This document shows, one piece after another, positions 1 through 25,887 of a stretch of DNA of 64,000 nt (its first letter is position 1; each line of letters opens with the position of its first letter). Source of the stretch: Arcuatula senhousia (lineage: Eukaryota; Mollusca; Bivalvia; Mytilida; Mytilidae). The notes beneath the pieces are model-generated. The model saw only the letters and a list, made by a program, of their open reading frames with translations, was not told the DNA's origin and did no database searches. The translations under genes and the position numbers were made by a program. The DNA lies in NCBI GenBank assembly GCA_963971305.1, contig OZ020306.1:3154842-3218841 (forward strand), given 5' to 3'.

Positions 1-3000
1 CCAACTAGGTTGATGTTACACTAGGCTATAACATCACTGACTGTAACGGTGCTCACCAGTTAGGTTAATGTTACACTAGGCTATTTCACCACTGACTTTA
101 ACGGTGCTTACCAGTTAGGTTAATGATACACTAGGCTATTTCATAACGGACTGTAACGGTGCTCACCAGTTAGGTAAATGATACACTAGGCTATTTCATC
201 ACGGACTGTAACGGTGCTCACCAGTTAGGTTAGTGTAACACTAGGCTATTGCATCATTGACCGTAACGGTGCTCATAAGCTAGGTTAGTGTTACACTAGG
301 CTATTGCATCATTGACCGTAACATTGCTCACCACTTAGTAATATGCTGCACTAGGCTTATTCATCACGAACTGTAACGGGGCTCACCAGCTAGGCTAGTG
401 TCAACTCGGCTATAACACCACTGACTGTAACGGTGCTAACCAGTTAGGTTAATGTTACACTAGGCTATTTCATAGCGGACTGTAACGGTGCTCACCAGTT
501 AGGTTAATGTTACACTAGGCTATTTCATAGCGAACTGTAACTGTGCTCACCAGTTAGGTAAATGATACACTAGGCTATTTCATCACGGACTGTAACGGGG
601 CTCAACAGTTAGGTTAATGTTACACTAGGCTATTACATAGAGGACTGTAACGGTGCTCACCAGTTAGGTTAATGTTACACTAGGCTATTTCATAGTGGAC
701 TGTAACGGTGCTCACCAGTTAGGTTAATGTTACACTAGTCTATTACATAGCGGACTGTAACGGTGCTCACCAGTTAGGTTAATGTTACACTAGGCTATTA
801 CATAGCGGACTGTAACGATGCTCACCAGTTAGGTTAATGTTACACTAGGCTATTACATAGCGGACTGTAACGGTGCTCACCAGTTAGGTTAATGTTACAC
901 TAGGCTATTTCATAGCGGACTGTAACGTGCTCACCAGTTAGGTTAATGTTGCACTAGGCTATTTAATCACGGACTGTAACGATGCTCACCAGTTAGGTTA
1001 ATGTTACACTAGGCTATTTCATCACGGACTGTAACGGTGGTCACCAGTTAGGTAAATGTTACACTAGGCCATTTCATCACGGACTGTATCGATGCTCACC
1101 AGTTAGGTAAATGTTACACTATGCTATATCATTACGGACTGTAACGGTGCTCACCAGTTAGGTTAATGTTACACTAGGCTATTTCATCACGGACTGTAAC
1201 GGTGCTCACCAGTTAGGTAAATGTTACACTAGGCTATTTCATCACGGACTGTAACGGTGCTCACCAGTTAGGTAAATGTTACACTAGGCTATTTAATCAC
1301 GGACTGTAACGGTGCTCACCAGTTAGGTTAATGTTACACTAGGCTATTTCATCACGGACTGTAACGGTGCTCACCAGTTAGGTAAATGTTACACTAGGCT
1401 ATTTCATCACGGACTGTAAGGTGCTCACCAGTTAGGTTAGTGTTACACTAGGCTATAACACCACTGACTGTAACAGTGCTCACCAGTTAGGTTAATGTTA
1501 CACTAGGCTATTTAATCACGGATTGTAACGGTGCTCACCAGTTAGGTTAATGTTACACTAGGCTATTTCATAGCGGACTGTAACGGGGCTCACCAACTAG
1601 GTTAATGTTACACTATGCTATTACATAGCGGACTGTAACGGTGCTCACCAGTTAGGTTAATGTTACACTAGGCTATTTAATCACGGACTGTAACGGTGCT
1701 CACCAGTTAGGTTAATGTTACACTAGGCTATTTAATCACGGACTGTAACGGTGCTCACCAGTTAGGTAAATGTTACACTAGGCTATTACATCGCGGACTG
1801 TAACGGTGCTCACCAGTTAGGTTAATGTTACACTAGGCTATTTCATCACGGACTGTAACGGTGCTCACCAGTTAGGTTAATGTTACACTAGGCTATTTCA
1901 TAGCGGACTGTAACGGTGCTCACCAGTTAGGTTAATGTTACACTAGGGTATTCATAGCGGACTGTAACGGTGCTCACCAGTTAGGTTAATGTTACACTAG
2001 GCTATTTCATAGCGGACTGTAACGGTGCTCACCAGTTAGGTTAATGTTACACTAGGCTATTTCATAGCGGACTGTAACGGTGCTCACCAGTTAGGTTAAT
2101 GTTACACTAGGCTATTTCATAGCGGACTGTAACGGTGCTCACCAGTTAGGTTAATGTTACACTAGGCTATTCATAGCGGACTGTAACGGTGCTCACCAGT
2201 TAGGTTAATGTTACACTAGGCTATTTCATAGCGGACTGTAACGGTGCTCACCAGTTAGGTTAATGTTACACTAGGCTATTTCATAGCGGACTGTAACGGT
2301 GCTCACCAGTTAGGTTAATGTTACACTAGGCTATTTCATAGCGGACTGTAACGGTGCTCACCAGTTAGGTTAATGTTACACTAGGGTATTACATAGCGGA
2401 CTGTAACGGTGCTCACCAGTTAGGTTAATGTTACACTAGGGTATTACATAGCGGACTGTAACGGTGCTCACCAGTTAGGTTAATGTTACATTAGGCTATT
2501 TCATAGCGGACTGTAACGGTGCTCACCAGTTAGGTTAATGTTACACTAGGCTATTACATAGCGGACTGTAACGGTGCTCACCAGTTAGGTAAATGTTACA
2601 CTAGGCTATTTCATAGCGGACTGTAACGGAGCTCACCAACTAGAATGATGTTACACTAGGCTATTACATAGCGGACTGTAACGGTGCTCACCAGTTAGGT
2701 TAATGTTACACTAGGCTATTTCATAGCGGACTGTAACGGGGCTCACCAACTAGAATGATGTTACACTAGGCTATTACATAGCGGACTGTAACGGTGCTCA
2801 CCAGTTAGGTTAATGTTACACTAGGCTATTTCATAGCGGACTGTAACGGTGCTCACCAGTTAGGTTAATGTTACACTAGGGTATTACATAGAGGACTGTA
2901 ACGGTGCTCACCAGTTAGGTTAATGTTACACTAGGCTATTTCATAGCGGACTGTAACGGTGCTCACCAGTTAGGTTAATGTTACACTAGGCTATTTCATA

Positions 3001-5071: not shown

Positions 5072-5193
5072 GTTTTTGTCCTTCTCAAGCCAATATTAAA
5101 GATGGTGAGCGTTGTTCCTCTGCCAGTTGTTACCTATGACCTGCACTACATCGACCGAATTTACAAGTCAATACCAGGAGTCATGTCACCAAG
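5072..5193 (+). CDS. GMC oxidoreductase exon with in-frame TGA
   Basis: Acceptor TCTCTGTAG; two bases complete a Gly codon, then [24 protein letters not shown], then [18 protein letters not shown] and donor AAG|GTAAGT. Homologues carry the same order (TI..G.R.SSA.AYLRPAL..PNL.V), so the frame is certain on both sides of the TGA. The TGA stands where Arg is expected (AGA to TGA, one substitution). The last 15 codons plus 10 intron bases form unit 1 of array 2. Confidence 0.85.
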
Positions 5194-8100
5194 GTAAGTA
5201 CTCCATCGACCGAATTTACAAGTCAATACCAGGAGTCATGTCACCAAGGTAAGTACTCCATCGACCGAATTTACAAGTCAATACCAGGAGTCATGTCATC
5301 AAGGTAAGGGAATGTGTACTCCATCGACCTAATTTACAAGTCAATACCAGGAGTCATGTCACCAAGGTAAGTACTCCATCGACCGAATTTACAAGTCAAT
5401 ACCAGGAGTCATATCACAAAGGTAAGGGAATGTGTACTCCATCGGCCAAATTTACAAGTCAATACCAGGAGTCATGTCACCAAGGTAAGTACTCCACCGA
5501 CCGAATTTACAAGTCAATACCAGGAGTCATGTCACTAAGGTAAGGGAATGTGTATCACTCTGATTTATTTTATCTTAAGTCAATGGTTAATATTGTTTAA
5601 TATATGTCAAAGTAAACTGTTTGAAAAAAAAGGTTTGTTCATGCAGTAAATATCATAATATGTACATGGGAATGGGATGTGGAATACACAAATTTAATTT
5701 CTAGCAAAGATTTCTAACAAATACCTATACATATAACTTTATCCGATCATAACAAGTTCGGGGTATCTCCATATCTTTATAAGATTGATGATCTTAAAAG
5801 ACGTTAATGAATACGTGGTAATGCGGGATGATAGTTGCACGTTTCTGTTTAGCTTACATTTCGCATGGGCTAAAATTCGCGATATTTCTGCCTATCAATA
5901 TTCTTTGCTAAAAGAACTATTCATCCATTAGGGGGGGGGTAGTTTAGCGGATATTTTGTGACCACGAATTAAGCCAAAATAACTCCCACGTGAAAATTCC
6001 CGCACTTACAGTATTTAAGAACTATTCAAACTTTTCCTCTGCAGTTATTACTCCGTCCTGGCAAAGTTGATGGGGTAGATGTCGCCAAGCAAGGAAAGGT
6101 GTACCGTATCTGGGCTAGAAAGGAAGTCATTTTGTCAGCAGGGGTGACGAATACTCCACAGATACTGATGATTTCCGGAGTAGGACCAGCGGATCAGCTC
6201 CGGAAATTTGATGTTAGTATATATGCATAATACTTTTTATACTTTAGGGCATATTAATTGGATATCAAAGAAACTAAGAGTTACAAATGAGGCAAAGACA
6301 AAACCAGTAACAGCATGAAGAATCAAACGACATAAAAACAACAAATCAACCGAATATCAATCAACAACTTAAGTCGTAACGAGAGTTAACACATGTGCTC
6401 GGGAATGGTAAGCAGGAACTGCTCGGGAAGGGTAAGCAGGAACTGCTCGGGAAGGGTAAGCAGTAACTGCTTGTTGTACATAATGTAATGTATATTAAGT
6501 TTTCATGGCGATTATTTCTTATATGACATAATTTTCTCATATTCCGTAGATGACGGAAAATCCTAATGTGTTCCAACTGGTATATTACTTTTTTATGCAA
6601 CAAGACATCGTAAATAGCCAATAACCTTGTGCGTCCATGACACCGCCATTAAAAGGGACTGATACTTTATACTCTTGTCGTTTTAGATTCCGATGAAGGC
6701 AAACCTTCCCGTTGGTAAAAACCTTCAGGACCATACCGCCTTTAGACTGGAGTATTCTACAGTTACACCAGCTGGTATAACCCTACAAAACCTGACAGAT
6801 CCTCAAAATGTACAACTCTATTTATTCCAAAGAGAAGGTTTCTATTTTTCTGTTCACGTATCAACATTAATTGCTACGATACCATTCTTACACTAAGCTT
6901 ATACATGCTTGTTTTTTTTTAATTAAATTTAAGAGGTCTGAAGTTAATTTTGCAAGAGAAGTACATATTCTCAAACCCATGGTTAACCAGTAAACCATTT
7001 TGGTGACCCCCCCCCAAAAAAAAAAAAAAAAAAAACAACAACAAAAAATGATTATAACTGATTTTTAGAATTTTTCTGATTGAGTTTTGTCTACGGAACT
7101 CATCAGAGGCGATCAAGCCAAAACATAGTAATGTCGAGCTAACCTACAGACATTATTATTTTATATAGGAATATATTCTAAAGCCCCAAATGGTGCCAGA
7201 CTCTTCATAACAACCGGGATGTCAAGTCAACCCCAGCCAGATGGGTTTATAGAATTCATTACTCTTCACAACAATCAGATGGGGGTCGCTTCTCCGGTAG
7301 AAAACTTAAAACAAGAGGTAACACAAAGCAATAACAATCAGATGGGAGTCACTTCTCCTGTAGAAAACTTAAAACAAGAGGTAACAAAAAGCAAGAACAG
7401 TCAGATTGGGGTCGCTACTCCTGTAGAAAACTTGAAACAAGAGGTAACACAAAGCAAGAACAATCAGATGGGAGTCGCTTCTCCTGTAGAAAACTTTAAA
7501 CAAGAGGTAACACAAAGCAAGAACAATCAGATGGGAGTCGCTTCTCCTGTAGAAAACTTGAAACAAGAGGTAACACAAAGCAAGAACAATCAGATGGGAG
7601 TCGCTTCTCCTGTAGAAAACTTTAAACAAGAGGTAACTAAAAGCAAGAACAATCAGATTGGAGTCGCTTCTCCTGTAGAAAACTTTAAACAAAAGGTAAC
7701 ACAAAGCAAGAACAATCAGATGGGAGTCGCTTCTCCTGTAGAAAACTTTAAACAAGAGGTAACACATAGCAAGAATAATCAGATTGGAGTCGCTTCTCCT
7801 GTAGAAAACTTTAAACAAAAGGTAACACAAAGCAAGAACAATCAGATGGGGGTCGCTTCTCCGGTAGAAAACTTAAGACAAGAGGTAACATAAAGCAAGA
7901 ACAATCAGATGGGAGTCGCTTCTCCGGTAGAAAACTTAAAACAAGAGGTAACACAAAGCACGAACAATCAGATGGGAGTCGATTCTCCTGTAGAAAACTT
8001 AAAACAAGAGGTAACAATAAGCAAGAACAATCAGATTGGGGTCGCTTCTCCTGTAGAAAACTTAAAACAAGAAGTAATACAAAGCAAGAACAATCAGATG

Positions 8101-11100
8101 GGAGTCGCTTCTCCGGTAGAAAACTTAAAACAAGAGGTAACACAAAGCAAGAACAATCAGATGGGAGTCGCTACTCCTGTAGAAAACTTAAAACAAGAGG
8201 TAACACAAAGCACGAACAATCAGATTGGGGTCGCTTCTCCTGTAGAAAACTTAAAACAAAAGGTAACACAAAGCAAGAACAATCAGATGGGGGTCGCTTC
8301 TCCTGTAGAAAACTTAAAACAAGAGGTAACACAAAGCAAGAACAATCAGATGGGGGTCTCTTCTCCGGTAGAAAACTTAAAACAAGAGGTAACAAAAAGC
8401 AAGAAGAATCAGACGGGGGTCGCTTCTCCTGTAGAAAACTTAAAACAAGAGGTAACACAAAGCAAGAACAATCAGATGGGGGTCGCTTCTCCTGTAGAAA
8501 ACTTATAACAAGAGGTAACACAAAGCAAGAACAATCAGATGGGGGCCGCTTCTCCTGTAGAAAACTTAAAACAAGACGTAACACAAAGCAAGAACAATCA
8601 GATGGGGGTCGCTTCTCCGGTAGAAAACTTAAAACAAGAGGTAACACAAAGCAAGAACAATCAGATGGGGGTCGCTTCTCCTGTAGAAAACTTAAAACAA
8701 GAGGTAACACAAAGCAAGAACAATCAGATGGGGGTCGCTTCTCCGGTAGAAAACTTATAACAAGAGGTAACACAAAGCAAGAACAATCAGATGGGAGTCG
8801 CTTCTCCGGTAGAAAACTTAAAACAAGAGGTAACAAAAAGCAAGAAGATTCAGATGGGGGTCGCTTCTCCTGTAGAAAATTTAAAACAAGAGGTAACACA
8901 AAGCAAGAACAATGAGATGGGGGTCACTTCTCCTGTAGAAAACTTAAAACAAGAGGTAACACAAAGCAAGAACAATCAGATGGGAGTCGCTACTCCTGTA
9001 GAAAACTTAAAACAAGAGGTAACACAAAGCACGAACAATCAGATGGGAGTCGCTTCTCCTGTAGAAAACTTAAAACAAGAGGTAACACAAAGCACGAACA
9101 ATCAGATGGGAGTCGCTTCTCCTGTAGAAAACTTAAAACAAGAGGTAACACAAAGCAAGAACAATCAGATGGGGGTCGCTTCTCCTGTAGAAAACTTAAA
9201 ACAAGAGGAAACATAAAGCAAGAACAATCAGATGGGAGTCGCTTCTCCTGTAGAAAACTTAAAACAAGAGGTAACACAAAGCACGAACAATCAGATGGGA
9301 TTCGCTACTCCGGTAGAAAACTTAAGACAAGAGGTAACACAAAGCAAGAACAATCAGATGGGGGTCGCTACTCTTGTAGAAAACTTAAAAGAAGAGGTAA
9401 CACGAAGCAAGAATAATCAGATGGGAGTCGCTTCTCCTGTAGAAAACTTAAAACAAGAGGTAACACAAAGCAAGAACAATCAGATTGGAGTCGTTTCTCC
9501 GGTAGAACACTTTAAACAAGAGGTAACACAAAGCACGAACAATCAGATGGGAGTCGCTTCTCCTGTAGAAAACTTAAAACAAGAGGAAACATAAAGCAAG
9601 AATAATCAGATGGGGGTCGCATATCCGGTAGAAAACTTAAAATAAGAGGTAACAAAAAGCAAGAAGATTCAGATGGGGGTCGCTTCTCCTGTAGAAAATT
9701 TAAAACAAGAGGTAACACAAAGCAAGAACAATGAGATGGGGGTCGCTTCTCCTGTAGAAAACTTAAAACAAGAGGTAACACAAAGCAAGAACAATCAGAT
9801 GGGGGTCGCTTCTCCTGTAGAAAACTTAAAACAAGAGGTAACACAAAGCAAGAACAATGAGATGGGAGTCGCTTCTCCGATAGAAAACTTAAAACAAGAG
9901 GTAATACAAAGCAAGAACAATCAGATTGGAGTCGTTTCTCCGGTAGAACACTTAAAACAAGAGGTAACACAAAGCACGAACAATCAGATGGGAGTCGCTA
10001 CTCCGGTAGAAAACTTGAAACAAGAGGTTACATAAAGCAAGAACAATCAGATTGGAGTCGCTACTCCGGTAGAAAACTTAAAACAAGAGGTAACACAAAG
10101 CAAGAACAATCAGATGGGGGTCGCTTCTCCGGTAGAAAACTTATAACAAGAGGTAACACAAAGCAAGAACAATCAGATGGGAGTCGTTTCTCCGGTAGAA
10201 AACTTATAACAAGAGGTAACACAAAGCAAGAACAATCAGATAGGAGTCGTTTCTCCGGTAGAAAACTTAAAACAAGAGGTAACACAAAGCACGAACAATC
10301 AGATGGGGGTCGCTTCTCCTGTAGAAAACTTAAAACAAGAGGTAACAAAAAGTAAGAACAATCAGATGGGAGTCGTTTCTCCGGTAGAAAACTTATAACA
10401 AGAGGTAACACAAAGCAAGAACAATCAGATGGGTGTCGCTTCTCCTGTAGAAAACTTAAAACAAGAGGTAACACAAAGCAAGAACAATCAGATGGGGGTC
10501 GCTTCTCCTGTAGAAAACTTATAACAAGAGGTAACACAAAGCAAGAACAATCAGATGGGAGTCGCTACTCCTGTAGAAAACTTAAAACAAGAGGTAACAC
10601 AAAGCAAGAACAATCAGATGGGGGTCACTTCTCCTGTAGAAAACTTATAACAAGAGGTAACACAAAGCAAGAACAATCAGATGGGAGTCGCTACTCCTGT
10701 AGAAAACTTAAAACAAGAGGTAACACAAAGCAAGAACAATCAGATGGGGGTCACTTCTCCTGTAGAAAACTTAAAACAAGAGGTAACACAAAGCAAGAAG
10801 AATCAGACGGGGGTCGCTTCTCCTGTAGAAAACTTATAACAAGAGGTAACACAAAGCAAGAACAATCAGATGGGAGTCGCTACTCCTGTAGAAAACTTAA
10901 AACAAGAGGTAACACAAAGCAAGAACAATCAGATAGGAGTCGCTTCTCCGGTAGAAAACTTATAACAAGAGGTAACACAAAGCAAGAACAATCAGATGGG
11001 AGTCGCTACTCCTGTAGAAAACTTAAAACAAGAGGTAACACAAAGCAAGAACAATCAGATGGGGGTCACTTCTCCTGTAGAAAACTTAAAACAAGAGGTA

Positions 11101-14100
11101 CCACAAAGCAAGAACAATCAGATAGGAGTCGCTTCTCCGGTAGAAAACTTATAACAAGAGGTAACACAAAGCAAGAACAATCAGATGGGAGTCGCTACTC
11201 CTGTAGAAAACTTAAAACAAGAGGTAACACAAAGCAAGAACAATCAGATGGGAGTCGCTACTCCTGTAGAAAACTTAAAACAAGAGGTAACACAAAGCAA
11301 GAACAATCAGATGGGGGTCACTTCTCCTGTAGAAAACTTAAAACAAGAGGTAACACAAAGCAAGAACAATCAGATGGGAGTCGCTACTCCTGTAGAAAAC
11401 TTAAAACAAGAGGTAACACAAAGCAAGAACAATCAGATAGGAGTCGCTTCTCCGGTAGAAAACTTATAACAAGAGGTAACACAAAGCAAGAACAATCAGA
11501 TGGGAGTCGCTACTCCTGTAGAAAACTTAAAACAAGAGGTAACACAAAGCAAGAACAATCAGATAGGAGTCGCTTCTCCGGTAGAAAACTTATAACAAGA
11601 GGTAACACAAAGCAAGAACAATCAGATGGGAGTCGCTACTCCTGTAGAAAACTTAAAACAAGAGGTAACACAAAGCAAGAACAATCAGATGGGGGTCACT
11701 TCTCCTGTAGAAAACTTATAACAAGAGGTAACACAAAGCAAGAACAATCAGATGGGGTCGCTTCTCCGGTAGAAAACTTAAAACAAGAGCTAACACAAAG
11801 CAAGAACAATCAGATGGGGGTCACTTCTCCTGTAGAAAACTTAAAACAAGAGCTAACACAAAGCAAGAACAATCAGATGGGGGTCACTTCTCCTGTAGAA
11901 AACTTAAAACAAGAGCTAACACAAAGCAAGAACAATCAGATGGGGGTCACTTCTCCGGTAGAAAACTTAAAACAAGAGCTAACACAAAGCAAGAACAATC
12001 AGATGGGGGTCACTTCTCCTGTAGAAAACTTAAAACAAGAGCTAACACAAAGCACGAACAATCAGATGGGGGTCTCTTCTCCTGTAGAAAACTTAAAACA
12101 AGAGCTAACACAAAGCACGAACAATCAGATGGGGGTCACTTCTCCTGTAGAAAACTTAAAACAAGAGCTAACACAAAGCAAGAACAATCAGATGGGAGTC
12201 GCTACTCCTGTAGAAAACTTAAAACAAGAGGTAACACAAAGCAAGAACAATCAGATGGGGGTCGCTTCTCCTGTAGAAAACTTAAAACAAGAGGTAACAC
12301 AAAGCAAGAACAATCAGATGGGGGTCACTTCTCCTGTAGAAAACTTATAACAAGAGGTAACACAAAGCAAGAACAATCAGATGGGGTCGCTTCTCCGGTA
12401 GAAAACTTAAAACAAGAGCTAACACAAAGCAAGAACAATCAGATGGGGGTCACTTCTCCTGTAGAAAACTTAAAACAAGAGCTAACACAAAGCAAGAACA
12501 ATCAGATGGGGGTCACTTCTCCTGTAGAAAACTTAAAACAAGAGCTAACACAAAGCAAGAACAATCAGATGGGGGTCACTTCTCCTGTAGAAAACTTAAA
12601 ACAAGAGCTAACACAAAGCAAGAACAATCAGATGGGGGTCACTTCTCCTGTAGAAAACTTAAAACAAGAGCTAACACAAAGCACGAACAATCAGATGGGG
12701 GTCTCTTCTCCTGTAGAAAACTTAAAACAAGAGGTAACACAAAGCAAGAATAATCAGATGGGGGTCGCTTCTCCTGTAGAAAACTTAAAACAAGAGCTAA
12801 CACAAAGCACGAACAATCAGATGGGGGTCGCTTCTCCGGTAGAAAACTTATAACAAGAGGTAACACAAAGCACGAACAATCAGACGGGACTCGCTTCTCC
12901 TGTAGAAAACTTAAAACAAGAGGTAAGTCAAAGCACGAACAATCAGATGGGGGTAGCTACTCCTGTAGAAAACTTAAAACAAGAGGTAACACAAAGCAAG
13001 AACAATCAGATTGGGGTCGCTACTCCTGTAGAAAACTTAAAACAAGAGGTAACAAAAAGTAAGAACAATCAGATGGGGGTCGCTTCTCCGGTAGAAAACT
13101 TAAAACAAGAGGTAACAAAAAGTAAGAACAATCAGATGGGGGTCGCTACTCCTGTAGAAAACTTAAAACAAGAGGTAACACAAAGCAAGAACAATCAGAT
13201 GGGGGTAGCTACTCCTGTAGAAAACTTAAAACAAGAGGTAACAAAAAGTAAGAACAATCAGATGGGGGTCGCTTCTCCTGTAGAAAACTTAAAACAAGAG
13301 GTAACACAAAGCAAGAACAATCAGATGGGGGTCGCTTCTCCGGTAGAAAACTTAAAACAAGAGGTAACACAAAGCAAGAACAATCAGATGGGGGTAGCTA
13401 CTCCTGTAGAAAACTTAAAACAAGAGGTAACATAAAGCAAGAACAATCAGATGGGGGTCGCTTCTCCGGTAGAAAACTTAAAACAAGAGGTAACATAAAG
13501 CAAGAACAATCAGATGGGGGTCGCTACTCCTGTAGAAAACTTAAAACAAGAGGTAACACAAAGCAAGAACAATCAGATGAGGGTAGCTGCTCCTGTAGAA
13601 AACTTAAAACAAGAGGTAACACAAAGCAAGAACAATCAGATGGGGGTCGCTACTCCTGTAGAAAACTTAAAACAAGAGGTAACACAAAGCAAGAACAATC
13701 AGATGAGGGTAGCTGCTCCTGTAGAAAACTTAAAACAAGAGGTAACATAAAGCAAGAACAATCAGATGGGGGTCGCTTCTCCGGTAGAAAACTTAAAACA
13801 AGAGGTAACATAAAGCAAGAACAATCAGATGGGGGTCGCTACTCCTATAGAAAACTTAAAACAAGAGGTAACACAAAGCAAGAACAATCAGATGGGGTCG
13901 CTTCTCCGGTAGAAAACTTAAAACAAGAGGTAACACAAAGCAAGAACAATCAGATGGGGGTAGCTACTCCTGTAGAAAACTTAAAACAAGAGGTAACACA
14001 AAGCAAGAACAATCAGATGAGGGTAGCTGCTCCTGTAGAAAACTTAAAACAAGAGGTAACACAAAGCAAGAACAATCAGATGGGGGTAGCTACTCCTGTA

Positions 14101-17100
14101 GAAAACTTAAAACAAGAGCTAACACAAAGCACGAACAATCAGATGGGGGTCACTTCTCCTGTAGAAAACTTAAAACAAGAGGTAACACAAAGCAAGAACA
14201 ATCAGATGGGGGTCGCTACTCCTGTAGAAAACTTAAAACAAGAGGTAACACAAAGCAAGAACAATCAGATGGGAGTCGCTTTCTCTGTAGAAAACTTAAA
14301 ACAAGAGGTAACACAAAGCAAGAACAATCAGATGGGGGTCGCTTCTCCTGTAGAAAACTTAAAACAAGAGGTAACACAAAGCAAGAACAATCAGATGGGG
14401 GTCGCTTCTCCTGTAGAAAACTTAAAACAAGAGGTAACACAAACCAAGAACAATCAGATGGGGGTCTCTTCTCCTGTAGAAAACTTATAACAAGAGGTAA
14501 CACAAAGCACGAACAATCAGATGGGAGTCGCTTCTCCTGTAGAAAACTTATAACAAGATGTAACATAGAGCAAGAACAATCAGATGGGGGTCTCTTCTCC
14601 TGTAGAAAACTTAAAACAAGAGGTAACACAAAGCAAGAACAATCAGATGGGGGTCGCTTCTCCTGTAGAAAACTTAAAACAAGAGGTAACACAAACCAAG
14701 AACAATCAGATGGGGGTCTCTTCTCCTGTAGAAAACTTAAAACAAGAGGTATTACAAACCAAGAACAATCAGATGGGGGTCTCTTCTCCTGTAGAAAACT
14801 TAAAACAAGAGGTATTACAAACCAAGAACAATCAGATGGGGGTCTCTTCTCCTGTAGAAAACTTTAAACAAGAGGTATTACAAACCAAGAACAATCAGAT
14901 GGGGGTCGCTTCTCCGGTAGAAAACTTAAAACAAGAGGTAACACAAAGCAAGAACAATCAGATGGGGGTCGCTTCTCCTGTAGAAAACTTTAAACAAGAG
15001 GTATTACAAACCAAGAACAATCAGATGGTGGTCTCTTCTCCGGTATAAAACTTTAAACAAGAGGTATTACAAACCAAGAACAATCAGATGGGGGTCACTT
15101 TTCCTGTAGAAAACTTAAAACAAGAGGTAACACAAAGCAAGAACAATCAGATGGGGGTCTCTTCTCTGGTAGAAAACTTAAAACAAGAGGTAACACAAAG
15201 CACGAACAATCAGATGGGAGTCGCTTCTCCGGTAGAAAACTTAAAACAAGAGGTAACACAAAGCACGAACAATCAGATGGGGGTCGCTTCTCCGGTAGAA
15301 AACTTAAAACAAGACGTAACACAAAGCAAGAACAATCAGATGGGGGTCGCTTCTCCTGTAGAAAACTTAAAACAAGAGATAACACAAAGCAAGAACAATC
15401 AGATGGGAGTCGCTACTCCTGTAGAAAACTTAAAACAAGAGGTAACACAAACCAAGAACAATCAGATGGGGGTCACTTCTCCTGTAGAAAACTTAAAACA
15501 AGAGGTAACATAAAGCAAGAACAATCAGATGGGAGTCGCTTCTCCGGTAGAAAACTTAAAACAAGAGGTAACACAAAGCACGAACAATCAGATGGGGGTC
15601 GCTTCTCCTGTAGAAAACTTAAAACAAGAGGTAACACAAAGCACGAACAATCAGATGGGGGTCGCTTCTCCTGTAGAAAACTTAAAACAAGAGGTAACAC
15701 AAAGCAAGAACAATCAGATGGGGGTCGCTTCTCCTGTAGAAAACTTAAAACAAAAGGTAACACAAAGCAAGAACAATCAGATGAGGGTAGCTGCTCCTGT
15801 AGAAAACTTAAAACAAGAGGTAACATAAAGCACGAACAATCAGATGGGAGTCGCTTCTCCGGTAGAAAACTTAAAACAAGAGGTAACACAAAGCACGAAC
15901 AATCAGATGGGGGTCGCTTCTCCTGTAGAAAACTTAAAACAAGAGGTAACACAAAGCACGAACAATCAGATGGGGGTCGCTTCTCCTGTAGAAAACTTAA
16001 AACAAGACGTAACACAAAGCAAGAACAATCAGATGGGGGTCGCTTCTCCTGTAGAAAACTTAAAACAAGAGGTAACATAAAGCAAGAACAATCAGATAGG
16101 GGTCGCTTCTCCTGTAGAAAACTTAAAACAAGAGATAACATAAAGCACGAACAATCAGATGGGAGTCGCTTCTCCGGTAGAAAACTTAAAACAAGAGGTA
16201 ACACAAAGCACGAACAAACAGATGGGGGTCGCTTCTCCTGTAGAAAACTTAAAACAAGAGGTAACACAAAGCAAGAACAATCAGATGGGGGTCGCTTCTC
16301 CTGTAGAAAGCTTAAAACAAGACGTAACACAAAGCAAGAACAATCAGATGGGGGTCGCTTCTCCTGTAGAAAACTTAAAACAAGACGTAACACAAAGCAA
16401 GAACAATCAGATGGGGGTCGCTTCTCCGGTAGAAAACTTAAAACTAGAGGTAACACAAAGCAAGAACAATCAGATAGGGGTCGCTTCTCCTGTAGAAAAC
16501 TTAAAACAAGAGATAACATAAAGCACGAACAATCAGATGGGAGTCGCTTCTCCGGTAGAAAACTTAAAACAAGAGGTAACACAAAGCACGAACAATCAGA
16601 TGGGGGTCGCTTCTCCTGTAGAAAACTTAAAACAAGACGTAACACAAAGCAAGAACAATCAGATGGGGGTCGCTTCTCCTGTAGAAAACTTAAAACAAGA
16701 CGTAACACAAAGCACGAACAATCAGATGGGAGTCGCGTCTCCGGTAGAAAACTTAAAACAAGAGATAACATAAAGCACGAACAATCAGATGGGAGTCGCT
16801 TCTCCTGTAGAAAACTTAAAACAAGAGGTAAAACAAAGCAAGAATAATCAGTTGGGGGTCGCTTTTCCTGTAGAAAACTTAAACAAGAGGTAACACAAAG
16901 CACGAACAATCAGATTGGGGTCGCTTCTCCTGTAGAAAGCTTAAAACAAGAGGTAACATAAAGCAAGAACAATCAGATGGGGGTCGCTTCTCCTGTAGAA
17001 AACTTAAAACAAGACGTAACACAAAGCAAGAACAATCAGATGGGGGTCGCTTCTCCTGTAGAAAACTTAAAACAAGAGGTAACACAAAGCACGAACAATC

Positions 17101-20100
17101 AGATTGGGGTCGCTTCTCCTGTAGAAAACTTAAAACAAGAGGTAACACAAAGCAAGAACAATCAGATGGGGGTCGCTTCTCCGGTAGAAAACTTAAACAA
17201 GAGGTAACACAAAGCACGAACAATCAGATTGGGGTCGCTTCTCTTTTAGAAAACTTAAAATAAGAGGTAACACAAAGCACGAACAATCAGATGGTGGTCG
17301 CTTCTCCGGTAGAAAACTTAAACAAGAGGTAACACAAAGCACGAACAATCAGATTGGGGTCGCTTCTCTTTTAGAAAACTTAAAATAAGAGGTAACACAA
17401 AGCACGAACAATCAGATGGTGGTCGCTTCTCCGGTAGAAAACTTCAAACAAGAGGCAACATAAACCAAGAAGAATCAGATGGGGTCGCTTCTCCTGTACT
17501 GTAGAAAACTTAAAACAAGAGGTAACACAAACCAAGAACAATCAGATGGTGGTCGCTTCTCCGGTAGAAAACTTCAAACAAGAGGCAACATAAACCAAGA
17601 AGAATCAGATGGGGGTCACTACTCCGGTAGAAAACTTAAAACAAGAGCTAACACAAAGCATGAACAATCAGATGGGGGTCGCTACTCCGATAGAAAACTT
17701 CAAGCAAGAGGTAACACAAAGCAAGAACAATCAGATAGGGTCGCTTCTCCTGTAGTAAACTTAAAACAAGAGGTAACACAAACCAAGAACAATCAGATAG
17801 GGTCGCTTCTCCTGTAGTAAACTTAAAACAAGAGGTAAAACAAAGCAAGAACAATCAGATAGGGTCGCTTCTCCTGTAGTAAACTTAAAACAAGAGGTAA
17901 AACAAATCAAGAACAATCAGATAGGGTCGCTTCTCCTGTAGAAAACTTAAAACAAGAGTTAACACAAAGCACGAACAATCAGATGGGAGACGCTTCTCCT
18001 GTACAAAATTTAAAACAAGAGGTAACACAAAGCAAGAACAATCAGAAAACTTAAAACAAGAAGTAACACAAAGCAAGAACAATCAGATGGGGGTTGCTAC
18101 TCCGGTAGAAAACTTAAAACAAAAGGTAACATAAACCAAGAAGAATCAGATGGGGTCAATACTCCGGTAGAAAACTTCAAACAAGATGTAACACAAAGCA
18201 AGAACGATCAGATAGGGTCGCTTCTCCTGTCGAAAACTTCGAACAAGAGGTAACACAAACCAAGAACAATCAGATGGGAGTCGCTTCTCCGGTAGAAAAC
18301 TTAAAACAAGAGGTAACACAAAGCACGAACAATCTGATTGGGGACGCTTCTCCGTTAGAAAACTTAAAACAAGAGTTAACACAAAGCACGAACAATCAGA
18401 TGGGAGACGCTTCTCCTGTACAAAATTTAAAACAAGAGGTAACACAAAGCAAGAACAATCAGAAAACTTAAAACAAGAGGTAACACAAAGCAAGAACAAT
18501 CAGATGGGGGTTGCTACTCCGGTAGAAAACTTAAAACAAAAGGTAACATAAACCAAGAAGAATCAGATGGGGGTCACTACTCCGGTAGAAAACTTCAAAC
18601 AAGATGTAACACAAAGCAAGAACGATCAGATAGGGTCGCTTCTCCTGTAGAAAACTTAAAAAAAGAGGTAACACAAAGCACGAACAATCAGATTGGGGTC
18701 GCTTCTCCGGTAGAAAACTTCAAACAAGAGGTAACACAAACCAAGAACAATCAGATGGGGTCGCTTCTCCTGTAGAAAACTTAAAACAAGAGGTAACACA
18801 AAGCAAGAACAATCAGATGAGGGTCGCTACTCCGGTAGAAAACTTAAAACAAGAGGTAACACAAAGCAAGAACAATCAGATGGGGGTCGCTTCTCCGGTA
18901 GAAAACTTATAACAAGAGGTAACACAAAGCAAGAACAATCAGATTAGGGTCGCTACTCCGGTAGAAAACTTAAAATAGAGGTAACACAAAGCAAGAACAA
19001 TCAGATGAGGGTCGCTACTCCGGTAGAAAACTTAAAACAAGAGGTAACACAAAGCAAGAACAATCAGATGGGGGTCGCTTCTCCGGTAAAAACTTAAAAC
19101 AAGAGGTAACACAAAGCAAGAACAATCAGATGGGGGTCACTTTTCCTGTAGAAAACTTAAACAAGAGGTAACACAAAGCACGAACAATCAGATTGGGGTC
19201 TCTTCTCCGGTAGAAAACTTAAAACAAGAGGTAACACAAAGCAAGAACAATCAGATGGGGGTCGCTTTTCCTGTAGAAAACTTAAACAAGAGGTAACACA
19301 AAGCAAGAACAATCAGATTGGGGTCGCTTCTCTTTTAGAAAACTTAAAACAAGAGGTAACACAAAGCAAGAACAATCAGATGGGGGTCGCTTCTCCTGTA
19401 GAAAACTTTAAACAAGAGGTATTACAAACCAAGAACAATCAGATGGTGGTCTCTTCTCCGGTAGAAAACTTAAAACAAGAGGTAACACAAAGCAAGAACA
19501 ATCAGATGGGGGTCGCTTTTCCTGTAGAAAACTTAAACAAGAGGTAACACAAAGCACGAACAATCAGATTGGGGTCTCTTCTCCGGTATAAAACTTTAAA
19601 CAAGAGGTATTACAAACCAAGAACAATCAGATGGGGGTCGCTTCTCCGGTATAAAACTTAAAACAAGAGCTAACACAAAGCAAGAACAATCAGATGGGGG
19701 TCTCTTCTCCGGTAGAAAACTTAAAACAAGAGGTAACACAAAGCACGAACAATCAGATGGGGGTCGCTTCTCCTGTAGAAAACTTAAAATAAGAGGTAAC
19801 ACAAAGCAAGAACAATCAGATGGGGGTCGCTTCTCCTGTAGAAAACTTAAAACAAGAGGTAACACAAACCAAGAACAATCAGATGGTGGTCTCTTCTCCT
19901 GTAGAAAACTTAAAACAAGAGGTACCACAAAGCAAGAACAATCAGATGGGGGTCGCTTCTCCTGTAGAAAACTTAAAACAAGACGTAACACAAAGCAAGA
20001 AGAATCAGACGGGGGTCGCTTCTCCTGTAGAAAACTTAAAACAAGACGTAACACAAAGCACGAACAATCAGATGGGGGTCGCTTCTCCTGTAGAAAACTT

Positions 20101-23100
20101 AAAACAAGAGCTAACACAAAGCAAGAACAATCAGATGGGGGTCGCTTCTCCTGTAGAAAACTTAAAACAAGATGTAACATAGAGCAAGAGCAATCAGATG
20201 GGAGTCGCTTCTCCTGTAGAAAACTTAAAACAAGAGATAACACAAAGCACGAACAATCAGATGGGGGTCGCTTCTCCTGTAGAAAACTTAAAACAAGACG
20301 TAACACAAAGCAAGAACAATCAGATGGGGGTCGCTTCTCCTGTAGAAAACTTAAAACAAGAGGTAACACAAAGCACGAACAATCAGATTGGGGTCGCTTC
20401 TCCTGTAGAAAACTTAAAACAAGAGGTAACACAAAGCAAGAACAATCAGATGGGGGTCGCTACTCCTGTAGAAAACTTAAAACAAGAGGTAACACAAAGC
20501 ACGAACAATCAGATTGGGGTCGCTTCTCCTGTAGAAAACTTAAAACAAGAGGTAACACAAAGCAAGAACAATCAGATGGGGGTCGCTTCTCCTGTAGAAA
20601 ACTTAAAACAAGAGGTAACACAAAGCAAGAACAATCAGATGGGGGCCGCTTCTCCTGTAGAAAACTTAAAACAAGAGGTAACATAAAGCAAGAACAATCA
20701 GATGGGGGTTGCTTCTCCGGTAGAAAACTTAAAACAAGAGGTAACATAAAGCACGAACAATCAGATTGGGGTCGCTTCTCCTGTAGAAAACTTAAAACAA
20801 GAGGTAACACAAAGCACGAACAATCAGATTGGGGTCGCTTCTCCTGTAGAAAACTTAAAACAAGAGGTAACACAAAGCAAGAACAATCAGATGGGGGTCG
20901 CTTCTCCTGTAGAAAACTTAAAACAAGAGGTAACATAAAGCAAGAACAATCAGATGGGGGTCGCTTCTCCTGTAGAAAACTTAAAACAAGAGGTAACACA
21001 AAGCACGAACAATCAGATTGGGGTCGCTTCTCCTGTAGAAAACTTAAAACAAGAGGTAACACAAAGCAAGAACAATCAGATGGGGGTCGCTTCTCCTGTA
21101 GAAAACTTAAAACAAGAGGTAACACAAAGCAAGAACAATCAGATGGGGTTGCTTCTCCTGTAGAAAACTTAAAACAAGAGGTAACATAAAGCAAGAACAA
21201 TCAGATGGGGGTCGCTTCTCCTGTAGAAAACTTAAAACAAGAGGTAACACAAAGCACGAACAATCAGATTGGGGTCGCTTCTCCTGTAGAAAACTTAAAA
21301 CAAGAGGTAACACAAAGCAAGAACAATCAGATTGGGGTCGCTTCTCCTGTAGAAAACTTAAAACAAGAGGTAACACAAAGCAAGAACAATCAGATGGGGG
21401 TCGCTTCTCCTGTAGAAAACTTAAAACAAGAGGTAACACAAAGCAAGAACAATCAGATGGGGGCCGCTTCTCCTGTAGAAAACTTAAAACAAGAGGTAAC
21501 ATAAAGCAAGAACAATCAGATGGGGGTTGCTTCTCCGGTAGAAAACTTAAAACAAGAGGTAACACAAAGCACGAACAATCAGATTGGGGTCGCTTCTCCT
21601 GTAGAAAACTTAAAACAAGAGGCAACACAAAGCAAGAACAATCAGATGGGGGTCGCTTCTCCTGTAGAAAACTTAAAACAAGAGGTAACATAAAGCAAGA
21701 ACAATCAGATGGGGGTCGCTTCTCCTGTAGAAAACTTAAAACAAGAGGTAACACAAAGCACGAACAATCAGATTGGGGTCGCTTCTCCTGTAGAAAACTT
21801 AAAACAAGAGGTAACACAAAGCAAGAACAATCAGATGGGGGTCGCTTCTCCTGTAGAAAACTTAAAACAAGAGGTAACACAAAGCAAGAACAATCAGATG
21901 GGGGTTGCTTCTCCTGTAGAAAACTTAAAACAAGAGGTAACATAAAGCAAGAACAATCAGATAGGGGTCGCTTCTCCTGTAGAAAACTTAAAACAAGAGG
22001 TAACACAAAGCACGAACAATCAGATGGGGGTCGCTTCTCCTGTAGAAAACTTAAAACAAGAGGTAACACAAAGCACGAACAATCAGATTGGGGTCGCTTC
22101 TCCTGTAGAAAACTTAAAACAAGAGGTAACACAAAGCAAGAACAATCAGATGGGGGCCGCTTCTCCTGTAGAAAACTTAAAACAAGACGTAACACAAAGC
22201 AAGAACAATAAGATGGGGGTCGCTTCTCCGGTAGAAAACTTATAACAAGAGGTAACATAAAGCAAGAACAATCAGATGGGGGTTGCTTCTCCGGTAGAAA
22301 ACTTAAAACAAGAGGTAACACAAAGCACGAACAATCAGATTGGGGTCGCTTCTCCTGTAGAAAACTTAAAACAAGAGGTAACACAAAGCAAGAACAATCA
22401 GATGGGGGTCGCTTCTCCTGTAGAAAACTTAAAACAAGAGGTAACACAAAGCAAGAACAATCAGATGGGGGCCGCTTCTCCTGTAGAAAACTTAAAACAA
22501 GACGTAACACAAAGCAAGAACAATCAGATGGGGGTTGCTTCTCCGGTAGAAAACTTAAAACAAGAGGTCACACAAAGCAAGAACAATCAGATGGGGGTCG
22601 TTACTCCGGTAGAAAACTTAAAACAAGAGGTAACACAAAGCAAGAACAATCAGATGGGGGTTGCTTCTCCGGTAGAAAACTTAAAACAAGAGGTAACATA
22701 AAGCAAGAACAATCAGATGGGGGTTGCTTCTCCGGTAGAAAACTTAAAACAAGAGGTAACATAAAGCAAGAACAATCAGATGGGGGTTGCTTCTCCTGTA
22801 GAAAACTTAAAACAAGAGGTAACACAAAGGACGAACAATTAGATGGGGATAGCTTCTCCTGTAGAAAACTTAAAACAAGAGGTAACACAAAGCACGAACA
22901 ATAAGATGGGGGTCGCTTCTCCGGTAGAAAACTTAAAACAAGAGGTAACATAAAGCAAGAACAATCAGATGGGGGTCACTTCTCCTGTAGAAAACTTAAA
23001 ACAAGAGGTAACACAAAGCACGAACAATCAGATGGGAGTCGCTACTCCTGTAGAAAACTTAAAACAAGAGGTAACACAAAGCAAGAACAATCAGATGGGG

Positions 23101-25887
23101 GTCGCTTCTCCTGTAGAAAACTTAAAACAAGAGGTAACACAAAGCAAGAACAATCAGATGGGGGTCGCTTCTCCTGTAGAAAACTTAAAACAAGAGGAAA
23201 CATAAAGCAAGAACAATCAGATGGGGGTCGCTTCTCCGGTAGAAAACTTAAAACAAGAGGTACATCAGGCAAGAACAATCATTACAATCATTACAAGACT
23301 AAGAAAATATATAGTAAAAATAACGTTAAAGAACTTTAATTCATTACCCGTCTCTGAGATTTTTAATGTAAGGTAACCGTATCTTCATGAAAAACAAAAA
23401 GAAACATATATGAATCATTCCAATGAATTTTCTTTTTTTTTGTGATTTATAAATTTCAGGTTGTTCAAAATAGACTTCAAAAGTTATCACCAAACGGTTT
23501 CATGATTGTTGTGAATGGTTTGCATCCAAAGAGTCGAGGAACAGTCCAGTTAAGAAGTACCAGTCCCTTTGATTCCCCTCTTATTGACCCAGCTTATTTC
23601 TCCGATCCATTTGATATGGATGTTATCATAAAAGGTAGTTTTTAGACAAGCAATGAGCAAAATGTATTAAGATAGTTATCTTTTTATATAGTGGTATAAC
23701 AATGACACTGTTATACATAGTTAATTGTTTTTCTAATTTCACATCAAACCGTTTTATAACCAATATCTTATAAATCGTCTTCTATGGATTTGCATTCGTA
23801 TAGTTTCTTCTTTACAACAGTTTTACAAATCTATGTTCGAACTATAGATACAAAGACAACATCAAATGGTACATTTTTATGGGTTTATTTTTAAGTGATT
23901 CGAGTTGTTCAGGATTTGGAGAGGACAGAAGCCTGGAGATCATTAGGAGTCCGACCTACTCGTTTTGACCAACCAGGCTACTGCAGTGATATACCGTACG
24001 ATACAGATAGATACTGGCGATGCATCATTCGTTCTTTCCACAGACCAGGGTACCATGGAACAGGAACATGTAGAATGGGTGCAGAAAATGATCCAACTGC
24101 ATCAGTGGTGAATCCTGATTTAAGGTAAGCTCTCCACAGGGAGGGGTATCATAGGAGAGAAAAGCGAAGAATGGGTGCAGGAAATAATCCCACAGCAGTG
24201 GCAAATCTTGGTTTAAGGTGAGTTCTCTACAAGGAGGGGTCATGGTAGAGGGAAGTGTAGAATGGGCGCAGAAAATGACCCAACTGCAGTGGTGGTAAAT
24301 CCTGATTTAAGGAGAGTTCGGGGGAGGTTATCAAGGTCGAGGGACCTGTAGAATGGAAGCAGATATTGAAACCACCGCCGTTGTGATTCGTTTCTTAAGG
24401 TGAGTTATACACAAGGAGAGGAATCATAGTAGAGGAAAGTGCAAGATGGGAGCAGAAAATGACACATCTGCGGTGGTAAATCCTGATTTAAGGTGATTTA
24501 TGGGGGGTTATCAAGATAGAGGGACCTGTGGATGGAATATTGATATTGATGCCACCGCCGTTGTGAATCATTCCTTAAGGTGAGTTATACACAAGAAGAG
24601 GAATCATGGTAGAGGGACGTGTAGAATGTAATCAGAAAATGACCCTAAAGCAGTGGTGAATCCTGATGAAAGGTGAGTTCTCCACAGGTAGGGGTATCAT
24701 GGTAGAGGGACGTGTAAAGGAGTTGCAGAAAATAATCCAACTGCAGTGGTGAATTCTGATTTAAGGTGAGTTATCCACAGAGAGGAGAATCATGGAAGAG
24801 GAACGTGATGATTTGAAGCAGAAAATGATCCAACTGCTGTGGTGAATCCTGATTTAAGATGAAATCTCCACAAGGAGGGGAATCATTGTAGAAGGGAAGT
24901 GTAGAATGGGAGCAGAAATGATCCAACTGCTGTGGTGAATCCTGATTTAAGGTTAGTTATCCACAGAGAGGAGAATCATGGAAGAGGAACGTGATGATTT
25001 GAAGCAGAAAATGATCCAACTGCTGTGGTGAATCCTGAATTCAGGTGAGTTATCAACGGGAACCGTAATCAACATGTAGAATGGGTGCTGAAATAATTTA
25101 ACAGATGATATACGATATTTTCCCGTCGGATGGGGAGAAATTTGTAATTGTTAAGGGAGGTGTAGATTGACGACTGAATATAATAACACAATTTCATTCT
25201 ATAGCTCTTAGCTTGAAAACCTTCTCTCAAATTTTTTAACTCTAGCTCTAAGTGTCCAACCCCGAAAACCTTACTTGATCTTGATAAAAAGAACCTTGCT
25301 ACAGACAGTGCTCTACGGTCCTTTCATTTCTAAAAGGAAAAATGAGAAAACAGTACGTTAAAGTTATAGAATAACCCTACAATAAGATTGAACAGCTTTT
25401 TATTGACCCTCACATAATGAAGAAGGACTGATAATTGTTAAGCAAACTTGTAAAGAACAAAATTCCTACTTCCTAAACTTTTTGAACAAAGAGAAAAAAA
25501 ATCAGTTACTCGAAGTAAACTAACTCACATTATCAAACGACTTCAAAGGATGGTTGAAATTAAAACAGATACTATTAGTTCACTAGTTCACTAATATATT
25601 CCCTTTATTTTTCCTTGCAATGAAGCAAGTTGAATTTTTTTGAATTCCTAAGTGCTCTTCTTAGCAAATTGATAAGAGTATAAGTTAGATAACGTATCTC
25701 TCTGGATCTTTGTCTTTTCAGAGTAAAAGGGTTCAATAACTTGAGAGTAGTAGATGCTTCAGTGATGAGAAACGTTGTCTCAGGGAACACGAATGCTGCC
25801 ACCATGATGATTGCCGAGAAAGCAGCTGATCTTATAAAGGGACAGACAATTCTAGGGTTCACAGACAAAGTGCATCATTCTTATTAG
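5072..25887 (+). CDS. GMC-family FAD oxidoreductase (choline/glucose dehydrogenase-like), C-terminal part, 7 exons, one in-frame TGA
   Basis: Gene model joining 5072-5193, 6045-6212, 6687-6837, 7169-7317, 23460-23634, 23896-24124 and 25722-25887; with one base from the missing upstream exon this is 386 codons plus stop. All junctions are GT-AG and every phase agrees (1,0,0,1,0,1,2). GMC enzymes oxidise alcohols such as choline or sugars with FAD. Seen here are the GF.P.Q..IKDGER segment, a second-signature region ([15 protein letters not shown]), [23 protein letters not shown], the catalytic-His region [10 protein letters not shown] and the C-terminal [20 protein letters not shown] with the Asn partner. 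The N-terminal GxGxxG FAD domain lies outside the window. Substrate cannot be inferred. A TGA at 5137-5139 replaces the conserved Arg of YLRP, so the allele may be a recent pseudogene, a null allele or an error. Four exon ends carry tandem arrays. Confidence 0.88.
5149..5559 (+). repeat. Exon 3' end plus donor, seven tandem copies (array 2)
   Basis: Copies start at 5149, 5204, 5259, 5322, 5377, 5440 and 5495. Lengths are 55, 55, 63, 55, 63, 55 and about 65 bp. Each has 45 nt of exon ([15 protein letters not shown]) followed by a donor, either GTAAGTACTC or the 8-nt longer GTAAGGGAATGTGTACTC. The last copy carries the long intron form and continues into unique intron, so the long form is ancestral and the short form is an 8-nt deletion derivative. 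Only copy 1 continues the upstream exon. Because 55 is not a multiple of three, use of a later donor shifts the frame. Confidence 0.92.
5560..6044 (+). other. GMC intron, unique sequence
   Basis: AT-rich intron with a G run near 5931-5939 and an acceptor CTTTTCCTCTGCAG ending at 6044. No gene or clear mobile element is seen. Confidence 0.6.
6045..6212 (+). CDS. GMC oxidoreductase exon with second GMC signature region
   Basis: 56 codons, phase 0 at both ends, acceptor CTCTGCAG, donor GAT|GTTAGT. It begins [20 protein letters not shown], then [13 protein letters not shown], then [20 protein letters not shown]. This matches the GMC second-signature block, except that Val stands at the position where the PROSITE pattern expects P, S, T or A (usually GAVNTPQ). 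The donor is not preceded by AG, and no tandem array follows it, unlike four of the other exons. Confidence 0.92.
6213..6686 (+). other. GMC intron with retroelement tail fragment
   Basis: About 6285-6480 resembles, in - orientation, the 3' tail of the RT retroelement found elsewhere in the window (compare 32810-32880 and 38840-38910). Within it a 24-bp unit is triplicated (6400-6423, 6424-6447, 6448-6471). The intron ends at the acceptor GTTTTAG (6686). Confidence 0.6.
6687..6837 (+). CDS. GMC oxidoreductase exon ([10 protein letters not shown])
   Basis: 50 codons plus one base. It reads [20 protein letters not shown] and continues to LYLFQREG. The LP.GKNLQDH block is among the most conserved in GMC enzymes and directly follows the QLRKFD end of the previous exon. 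The donor AAG|GTTTCT is weak, but the phase 1 junction with the exon at 7169 restores a Gly codon. Confidence 0.9.
6838..7168 (+). other. GMC intron
   Basis: Contains a C/A homopolymer stretch (about 7007-7035) and, near 7080-7125, a short dispersed-repeat fragment (ACTCATCAGAGGCG) also seen at 39390-39480 and 42460-42540. The acceptor is TTATATAG at 7168. Confidence 0.55.
7169..7317 (+). CDS. GMC oxidoreductase exon whose 3' end seeds the 16 kb array
   Basis: Two bases complete Gly, then [40 protein letters not shown] and SPVENLKQE, followed by donor GAG|GTAACA. It corresponds to the variable region between the LQDH block and the C-terminal GMC domain, so residue-level homology is weaker. 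The boundaries are fixed by phase on both sides: 49 codons after the first two bases, joining GAG to GTT at 23460. The last 48 nt ([16 protein letters not shown]) and the first 15 intron bases form the repeated unit. The donor choice is inferred from phase and consensus. The frame stays open past it to a TAA at 7891-7893, so longer exon forms are possible. Confidence 0.75.
11786..12800 (+). repeat. Sub-block of array 3 with donors mutated from GT to CT
   Basis: In most units of this block the exon-intron joint reads CAAGAG|CTAACA instead of CAAGAG|GTAACA, so the 5' splice site is lost. A few normal units lie between (about 12230-12420 and 12735). Isolated CT units recur near 14117, 17647 and 20108. 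The clustering shows local amplification of one mutated unit. Confidence 0.8.
14745..15075 (+). repeat. Sub-block of array 3 with GTATTACAAACC intron variant
   Basis: Successive units share GAGGTATTACAAACCAAG in place of GAGGTAACACAAAGCAAG, a locally amplified variant. Single copies recur near 19415 and 19606, which fits shuffling of units within the array. Confidence 0.7.
17941..18577 (+). repeat. Duplicated 417-bp block inside array 3, with truncated units
   Basis: The block at 17941-18160 recurs 417 bp later (18358-18577). It carries the same private changes: a GGGAGACGC unit, a GTACAAAAT unit, and one unit deleted between AATCAG and AAAACTTAAAAC. Units around here (17.2-18.7 kb) are the most divergent of the array. 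Confidence 0.75.
23274..23459 (+). other. Unique end of the giant GMC intron
   Basis: Begins with AACAATCATTACAATCATTAC, which shares the 8 bases AACAATCA with the exon position where the array starts (7270-7277). It ends with a T-rich acceptor and AAATTTCAG at 23459. Confidence 0.75.
23460..23634 (+). CDS. GMC oxidoreductase exon, start of C-terminal GMC domain
   Basis: 58 codons plus one base. It reads [20 protein letters not shown], then [20 protein letters not shown], then [18 protein letters not shown]. The HPKSRG.V.LRS..PFD.PLIDP.Y pattern is characteristic of the GMC C-terminal domain. The donor AAAAG|GTAGTT is not followed by an array. Confidence 0.95.
23896..24124 (+). CDS. GMC oxidoreductase exon with catalytic-His motif
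   Basis: Two bases complete a Val codon, followed by [20 protein letters not shown]. Near the end it carries [20 protein letters not shown] and [16 protein letters not shown] is the GMC catalytic His region (usually HP.GT..MG). It ends with two bases of an Arg codon before donor AAG|GTAAGC, and the exon at 25722 supplies the third base. The final ~72 nt, from about GGGTACCATGG, seed array 4. Confidence 0.94.
24054..25100 (+). repeat. 93-bp exon-tail/donor tandem array (array 4)
   Basis: Copy 1 is the true exon end. Donor-start positions of later units are 24125, 24218, 24312, 24400, 24493, 24580, 24673, 24766, 24859, 24952 and 25045. Spacing is 93, 94, 88, 93, 87, 93, 93, 93, 93 and 93 bp. 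Each unit has about 20 intron bases (GTGAGTTNTCCACAAGGAGG) and then about 72 nt of degraded exon (TGTAGAATGGG...GTGAATCCTGATTTAAG). Two donors are dead (24312 GAGAGT, 24859 ATGAAA). The 24312 and 24493 units form a distinct subfamily, and the 24766 and 24952 units are nearly identical, showing dimer-level duplications. Divergence is higher than in arrays 1-3. Confidence 0.93.
25101..25721 (+). other. GMC intron, unique sequence
   Basis: AT-rich sequence without a recognisable element. It ends at the acceptor TTTGTCTTTTCAG (25721). Confidence 0.6.
25722..25887 (+). CDS. GMC oxidoreductase last exon with stop
   Basis: One base completes Arg, then [40 protein letters not shown], and a short tail ending KVHHSY before TAG at 25885-25887. 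The block is the GMC C-terminus, with the Asn of GNTNA as the second active-site residue. Most family members have Pro after DASVM; here it is Arg (AGA). Confidence 0.95.

Follow-up and report, generated by a model that had tools for sequence, protein, structure and literature searches.

Minisatellites spanning splice donors in a putative GMC oxidoreductase gene of the mussel Arcuatula senhousia

Minisatellite-like tandem duplications that span an exon–intron boundary, termed 'mirages', have been described in several genes of amphioxus, including Adh3 and the globins BflGb6 and BflGb9 (PMC3087553) as well as troponin C, with PGBD5 as an imperfect case (PMC3902484). As set out in these accounts, mirage units measure 10–160 bp, the AG/GT signals are retained in many but not all copies, the edges of the clusters escape homogenization and copy number varies among haplotypes or cells (PMC3087553, PMC3902484), while splicing is reportedly left undisturbed (PMC3087553). 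A human counterpart, by the title of its report, is a minisatellite giving multiple splice donors in the transcript of the interferon-induced gene 6-16 (IFI6/G1P3; Turri, Cuin and Porter 1995). Internal minisatellites of human segmental duplications, with units of 30 bp on average, are described as altering exons and introns and as producing novel introns through cryptic splice sites (PMC2812944), and intron gain by tandem duplication of an AGGT-containing segment, the Rogers model, has been discussed with a case in the RdRp of potato (PMC4974935). The abalone TSSK1-like gene has an intronic 27-bp minisatellite, in the description of which spanning of a boundary does not feature, and earthworm metallothionein is described with minisatellites in intron 1 and with duplications of the fourth exon that are absent from the transcript. 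In the open-licence PMC literature, we found no report of boundary-spanning arrays in molluscs and no published case of four such arrays in one mollusc gene.

Here we describe a locus of this kind from a window of 64,000 nt of the A. senhousia genome, by which we mean the whole stretch of DNA analysed. In the first 25.9 kb of the window, the + strand carries the C-terminal portion of a gene for a GMC (glucose-methanol-choline) oxidoreductase. Joined, the exons score 84 bits against the Pfam family GMC_oxred_N and 118 bits against GMC_oxred_C. Glucose dehydrogenase-like proteins of Mytilus are the closest relatives among the best 120 of 7,993 matches, the three highest-ranking each being 47% identical (7,993 of 7,995 scored candidates passed the cut-off). 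Of the 11 molluscan relatives that were aligned, seven are from Mytilus, with identities of 45–49%. Exons were called from acceptors, donors and phases, with their ends placed by exon reconstruction and alignment to the 11 relatives, and arrays were detected with TRF and decomposed into units. TRF itself delimits arrays 1 to 4 at 6-4700, 5145-5554, 7270-23281 and 24054-25061, respectively. The putative features of the gene are as follows, with the exon–intron joint marked by a slash.

Exon a: left of the window and absent from it
1..4733, + strand: array 1, a 55-bp minisatellite of 86 nearly full copies (TRF 85.5), running past the left edge
5072..5193, + strand: exon b, with an in-frame TGA at 5137-5139
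5143..5555, + strand: array 2, 7 copies of 55- and 63-bp types, the first unit combining the 3' end of exon b with donor GTAAG
6045..6212, + strand: exon c, donor GAT/GTTAGT, array-free
6396..6471, + strand: fifth array of the gene, 24-bp unit, in intron c, away from exon ends
6687..6837, + strand: exon d, donor AAG/GTTTCT, array-free
7169..7317, + strand: exon e, ending ...NLKQE/gtaaca within the first unit of array 3
7270..23281, + strand: array 3, a 63-bp minisatellite of 253 nearly full copies (TRF 255)
23460..23634, + strand: exon f, donor AAG/GTAGTT, array-free
23905..24124, + strand: exon g, ending ...VVNPDLR within the first unit of array 4
24054..25069, + strand: array 4, a 93-bp minisatellite of 11 nearly full diverged copies (TRF 10.9), with a partial copy to about 25105
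25722..25887, + strand: exon h, the last coding exon, to the first stop codon at 25885-25887

All exons but b, six in total, are open and phase-compatible, and their splice sites are AG acceptors and GT donors. The start of exon g was picked by reading phase, which the use of CAG at 23910-23912 would break, and its acceptor has no clear pyrimidine tract. At the in-frame TGA of exon b the aligned relatives have Arg in nine of 11 cases, Lys in one and Trp in one, and this codon may reflect a broken allele, a pseudogene or a sequence error.

Four of the seven recognized exon ends (a–g), that of exon a being judged solely through the unit of array 1, bear a minisatellite made of the exon end, its donor and a short piece of intron. 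With unit boundaries that are arbitrary by a few bases wherever sequences repeat, the unit comprises 49 nt of exon end (VTLGYFIADCNGAHQL+G) and 6 nt of intron (GTTAAT) in array 1, 51 nt of exon and 12 or 4 nt of intron in array 2, 48 nt of exon end and 15 nt of intron in array 3, and 68 nt of exon end and 25 nt of intron in array 4. The exon ends at 5193, 7317 and 24124 fall inside the first units of arrays 2, 3 and 4, respectively, and the exon end is 96% identical to the unit over 51 nt for array 2 and 98% over 48 nt for array 3. Comparison of the 3'-terminal 80 nt of exons b, e and g with their own downstream introns, of which at most 2,500 bases each were taken, gave scores of 93, 96 and 88 against maxima of 22, 31 and 26 in 100 shuffles, bearing out the proposal of a first-pass annotation that the first units of three arrays are coding exon ends. 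The anchor exon of array 1 lies outside the window, so that its anchoring is inferred from sequence match and phase: the translated unit, VTLGYFIADCNGAHQL(G), aligns to EIGYRSVDCNGYSEIG of Mytilus, immediately upstream of exon b, and phase 1 suits exon b, as had been suggested. TRF, exon reconstruction and the shuffle comparisons also agree with the earlier observation that the four arrays share an anatomy while their units are unrelated. A common origin of the four was considered and rejected, all six unit pairs scoring within the shuffle range. Outside the arrays, a search of 26–64 kb of the window for further copies of the units gave best raw scores of 22–27.

The gene is thus an unusually dense case of the boundary-spanning repeats already described in lancelets. 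Like mirages as published, arrays 2, 3 and 4 begin inside exons b, e and g, as array 1 would by its match and phase, and the donor GT is present in many but not all copies (81/86, 7/7, 223/253 and 9/11 in arrays 1 to 4). Unlike the lancelet arrays described, which lie at both 5' and 3' boundaries, those of the mussel lie at donors only; and whereas BflGb6 is reported with few copies (6 and 3 in two haplotypes), there are here up to about 253 over 16 kb, in a mollusc gene with four arrays. As mirages have been published in several amphioxus genes (PMC3087553, PMC3902484), the pattern is already a known kind, which answers the initial remark that no such pattern was familiar. The AGGT model, as outlined, likewise invokes a tandem duplication that touches or spans a splice site, but creates a new intron, of which there is no sign here, each donor having its own downstream acceptor. 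The internal repeats of human segmental duplications are similar in that minisatellite expansion alters gene structure, whereas the arrays here, unlike those repeats as described, are anchored on several donors of one gene. Gene 6-16 resembles this locus in having a donor in the copies, but has one array in one gene where this gene has four. The 6-16 minisatellite reportedly has a 12-bp unit, with several of its donors really used.

Conservation of the donor GT is ordinary in the large arrays 1 and 3, in which 23 of 53 and 45 of 61 dinucleotides, respectively, are better kept. The small arrays 2 and 4, with 0 of 61 and 18 of 91 dinucleotides better kept, are too short to judge, although their fairly well kept donor GT runs contrary to the explanation that we favour. 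In array 3 the distinct variants seen amount to 13 of 28 possible synonymous, 45 of 109 missense and 4 of 7 nonsense changes (synonymous versus the rest, Fisher P 0.83). The coding frame is open across the first nine copies of this array; an in-frame stop occurs in 57 of its 230 indel-free copies, and a stop within the exon-derived part in 27 of the 253 nearly full copies, as against 1 of 86 in array 1. Divergence at codon positions 1–3 of array 3 (0.039, 0.013 and 0.064) is coding-like, being higher at the third than at the second position (column-permutation P 0.011), but the counts of distinct variants suggest that this skew stems from a few variants common to many copies. The variants of array 1 lean synonymous (18/33 versus 36/111 of the distinct changes possible; Fisher P 0.025). 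We interpret this lean and the codon-position skew as due to chance or to traces left by a coding ancestor rather than to present selection, while acknowledging them as contrary hints, and overall the array copies look largely neutral. A coding repeat (VNTR) was ruled out by the in-frame stops of array 3, and a protein search with nearly ten of its copies (7270-7890) gave no match at E 0.001 among the 7,996 candidates scored from a capped set.

Neighbouring copies have a similarity of 0.935 versus 0.926 for the average copy pair in array 3, and of 0.921 versus 0.908 in array 1. Array 1 decays at its intron edge, where the last copy scores 0.764 against 0.949 in the interior, whereas array 3 has no clear edge decay; in both arrays, higher-order structure in the form of runs of at least five identical copy pairs is absent at every lag. 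Copies of array 4 contain indels. Short matches, of which AACAATCA in array 3 is one example, link the exon entry with the exit into native intron, but a microhomology reading of them is ambiguous, since a final partial copy would look the same. Two of the first units differ from the copies that follow them. At 24054-24124, exon g has an extra TCA (Ser) codon that is absent from the later copies of array 4 and from all 11 aligned relatives, and array 4 therefore seems to preserve an older version of the exon end. At 5143-5150, the GCACTA of exon b (Ala-Leu) corresponds to GTACTC (Val-Leu) in the six later copies of array 2, and eight of the 11 relatives have Val at the Ala/Val site.

The arrays are unevenly placed among the splice sites of the gene. 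Exon–intron matches at donors c, d and f score 15–16, not above the maxima of 100 shuffles, and those at the seven acceptors b–h score 14–22, none exceeding its shuffle maximum, although acceptor c equals its maximum of 22. When seeds were placed at random in the array-collapsed locus of 4.1 kb, with exon a guessed as 150 nt, the probability of all four long arrays falling at donors was 1.8e-4, or 4e-4 with exon-interior duplications purged (post hoc), and that of at least four of five arrays doing so was 3.9e-4 or, with the same purging, 9.4e-4 (post hoc). The placement that had earlier been judged hard to explain by chance thus stands (4 of 7 donors, 0 of 7 acceptors), with P of roughly 2e-4 to 1e-3 under random placement; such values, however, were obtained post hoc from a single striking gene taken from a scan, and therefore carry no genome-wide significance. 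Given that all four arrays straddle a boundary, with donor and acceptor taken as equal, the chance that all four lie at donors is 0.06, which counts against pure tolerance. Within the unit, the donor falls in the final 27% in each of the four arrays (P 0.005 if uniform, post hoc), again contrary to the explanation that we favour.

Donor strength, scored like the motifs below with a hand-entered donor matrix, does not predict which exons bear arrays. Among array-bearing donors, b scores 12.5, e 5.9, g 11.2 and the array 1 unit 3.2; among array-free donors, c scores 4.0, d 1.4 and f 5.8. A clean split is absent, and the suggestion that array-free exons have the weaker donors holds poorly, array 1 and exon e overlapping with c and f. 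The consensus unit of the 24-bp array (6396-6471) holds the strong donor-like GGGTAAGC, AGG/GTAAGC, a sense-strand motif at P 0.002 versus random window pieces. On the same comparison arrays 1 and 3 are not significant for a sense-strand donor motif (P 0.28 for array 1, 0.09 for array 3), the strong donor motif of array 1 lying on the opposite strand (P 0.003). Four array units outside the gene have no strong donor on either strand, a comparison that covers none of six short TRF rows (29–49 bp). Minisatellites at 46192-46879, 51899-53273, 53661-54096 and 58620-58864 have no recognized exon nearby, and the units tested have no strong donor motif. Elsewhere in the rest of the window, Pfam searches of eight ORFs gave no family at E 0.01 (0/8); a 169-aa ORF at 38280-38789 looks, by impression only, like a reverse-transcriptase fragment and has no Pfam match, and a 94-aa ORF at 34556-34840 resembles it.

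We consider it likely that the four arrays are mirage-type minisatellites, each arising from a donor-straddling duplication that was tolerated by splicing and then expanded neutrally within the intron. Each array would have started with a chance tandem duplication of 55–93 bp straddling a donor. Such a duplication would be nearly harmless, because neither the exon end nor the donor is altered in the first copy and every later copy lies in the intron, where slippage or unequal exchange could lengthen the array with the copies free of selection. We infer from the sequence both that the first donor would be the one used and that duplication preceded expansion. Under this explanation acceptor-spanning duplications should be tolerated as well, and their absence from all seven acceptors is evidence against it.

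That absence, set beside the arrays at four of seven donors, is what would be expected if donor regions were hotspots of tandem duplication, through R-loops, transcription-linked breaks or a GTAAG-type motif, in which arrays are seeded. We regard this as unlikely. The 24-bp fifth array, which lies off the exon ends yet has a strong sense donor motif, keeps a donor-directed reading alive when compared with the four outside units that have none, and array density is higher within the gene part, at 5 in 3.7 kb of non-array DNA, than in the rest of the window, at 5 clusters in 35.5 kb, or 11 in about 35 kb when the six short TRF rows are added. The locus is, however, a single gene picked for being striking; the donors of array 1 and exon e are weak, within the range of array-free c and f; and the sense-strand tests of arrays 1 and 3 were not significant, the strong motif of array 1 being on the other strand. 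The broader proposition, that 5' donors in this lineage seed tandem duplication, through a process linked to the donor sequence or to its transcription that repeatedly copies about 50–70 nt of exon end with a few intron bases, is in our judgement quite unlikely; if it were true, introns would lengthen from donor-anchored minisatellites, and long genic arrays would mark past or present donors.

Decay offers a different account of the same arrays, in which the gene is a pseudogene with splice sites free to duplicate, or the arrays are partly artefacts of assembly. We think this very unlikely: although the TGA of exon b, at a site that is mostly Arg in relatives, and the extra Ser codon of exon g point towards it, the six other exons are intact (with the pyrimidine tract of exon g unclear), the joined protein matches both GMC families and the relatives, and the mutual differences among array copies are not what simple assembly stutter would yield. 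Selection on the repeated donors, also raised in the first-pass annotation, or on the repeated exon ends, for example because they reinforce or adjust splicing or diversify the protein, strikes us as very improbable indeed. Unit length is divisible by three in arrays 3 and 4 and in the 63-bp type of array 2, so that splicing from an inner donor could remain in frame, and the open frame of the first nine copies of array 3, the synonymous lean of array 1, the codon-position skew of array 3 and the rather well kept GT of arrays 2 and 4 fit this idea. Against it, the donor GT has no special conservation in the two large arrays, which leaves the proposed selection on donors unsupported; in-frame stops are present in array 3, including its exon-derived part; distinct synonymous variants are about as frequent in this array as nonsense and missense ones; a 55-bp unit, as in arrays 1 and 2, would cause a frameshift; and the array 4 copies bear indels.

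On the tolerated-duplication explanation, this locus extends mirage-type minisatellites, found in the literature from lancelets, to a mollusc, and in an extreme form, with one array reaching 16 kb. Arrays of this type may preserve older versions of exon ends, as the Ser codon of exon g and array 4 indicates. If more genes of this genome prove to be alike, they would provide a tractable system for distinguishing a donor hotspot from tolerance, and for studying the lengthening of introns.
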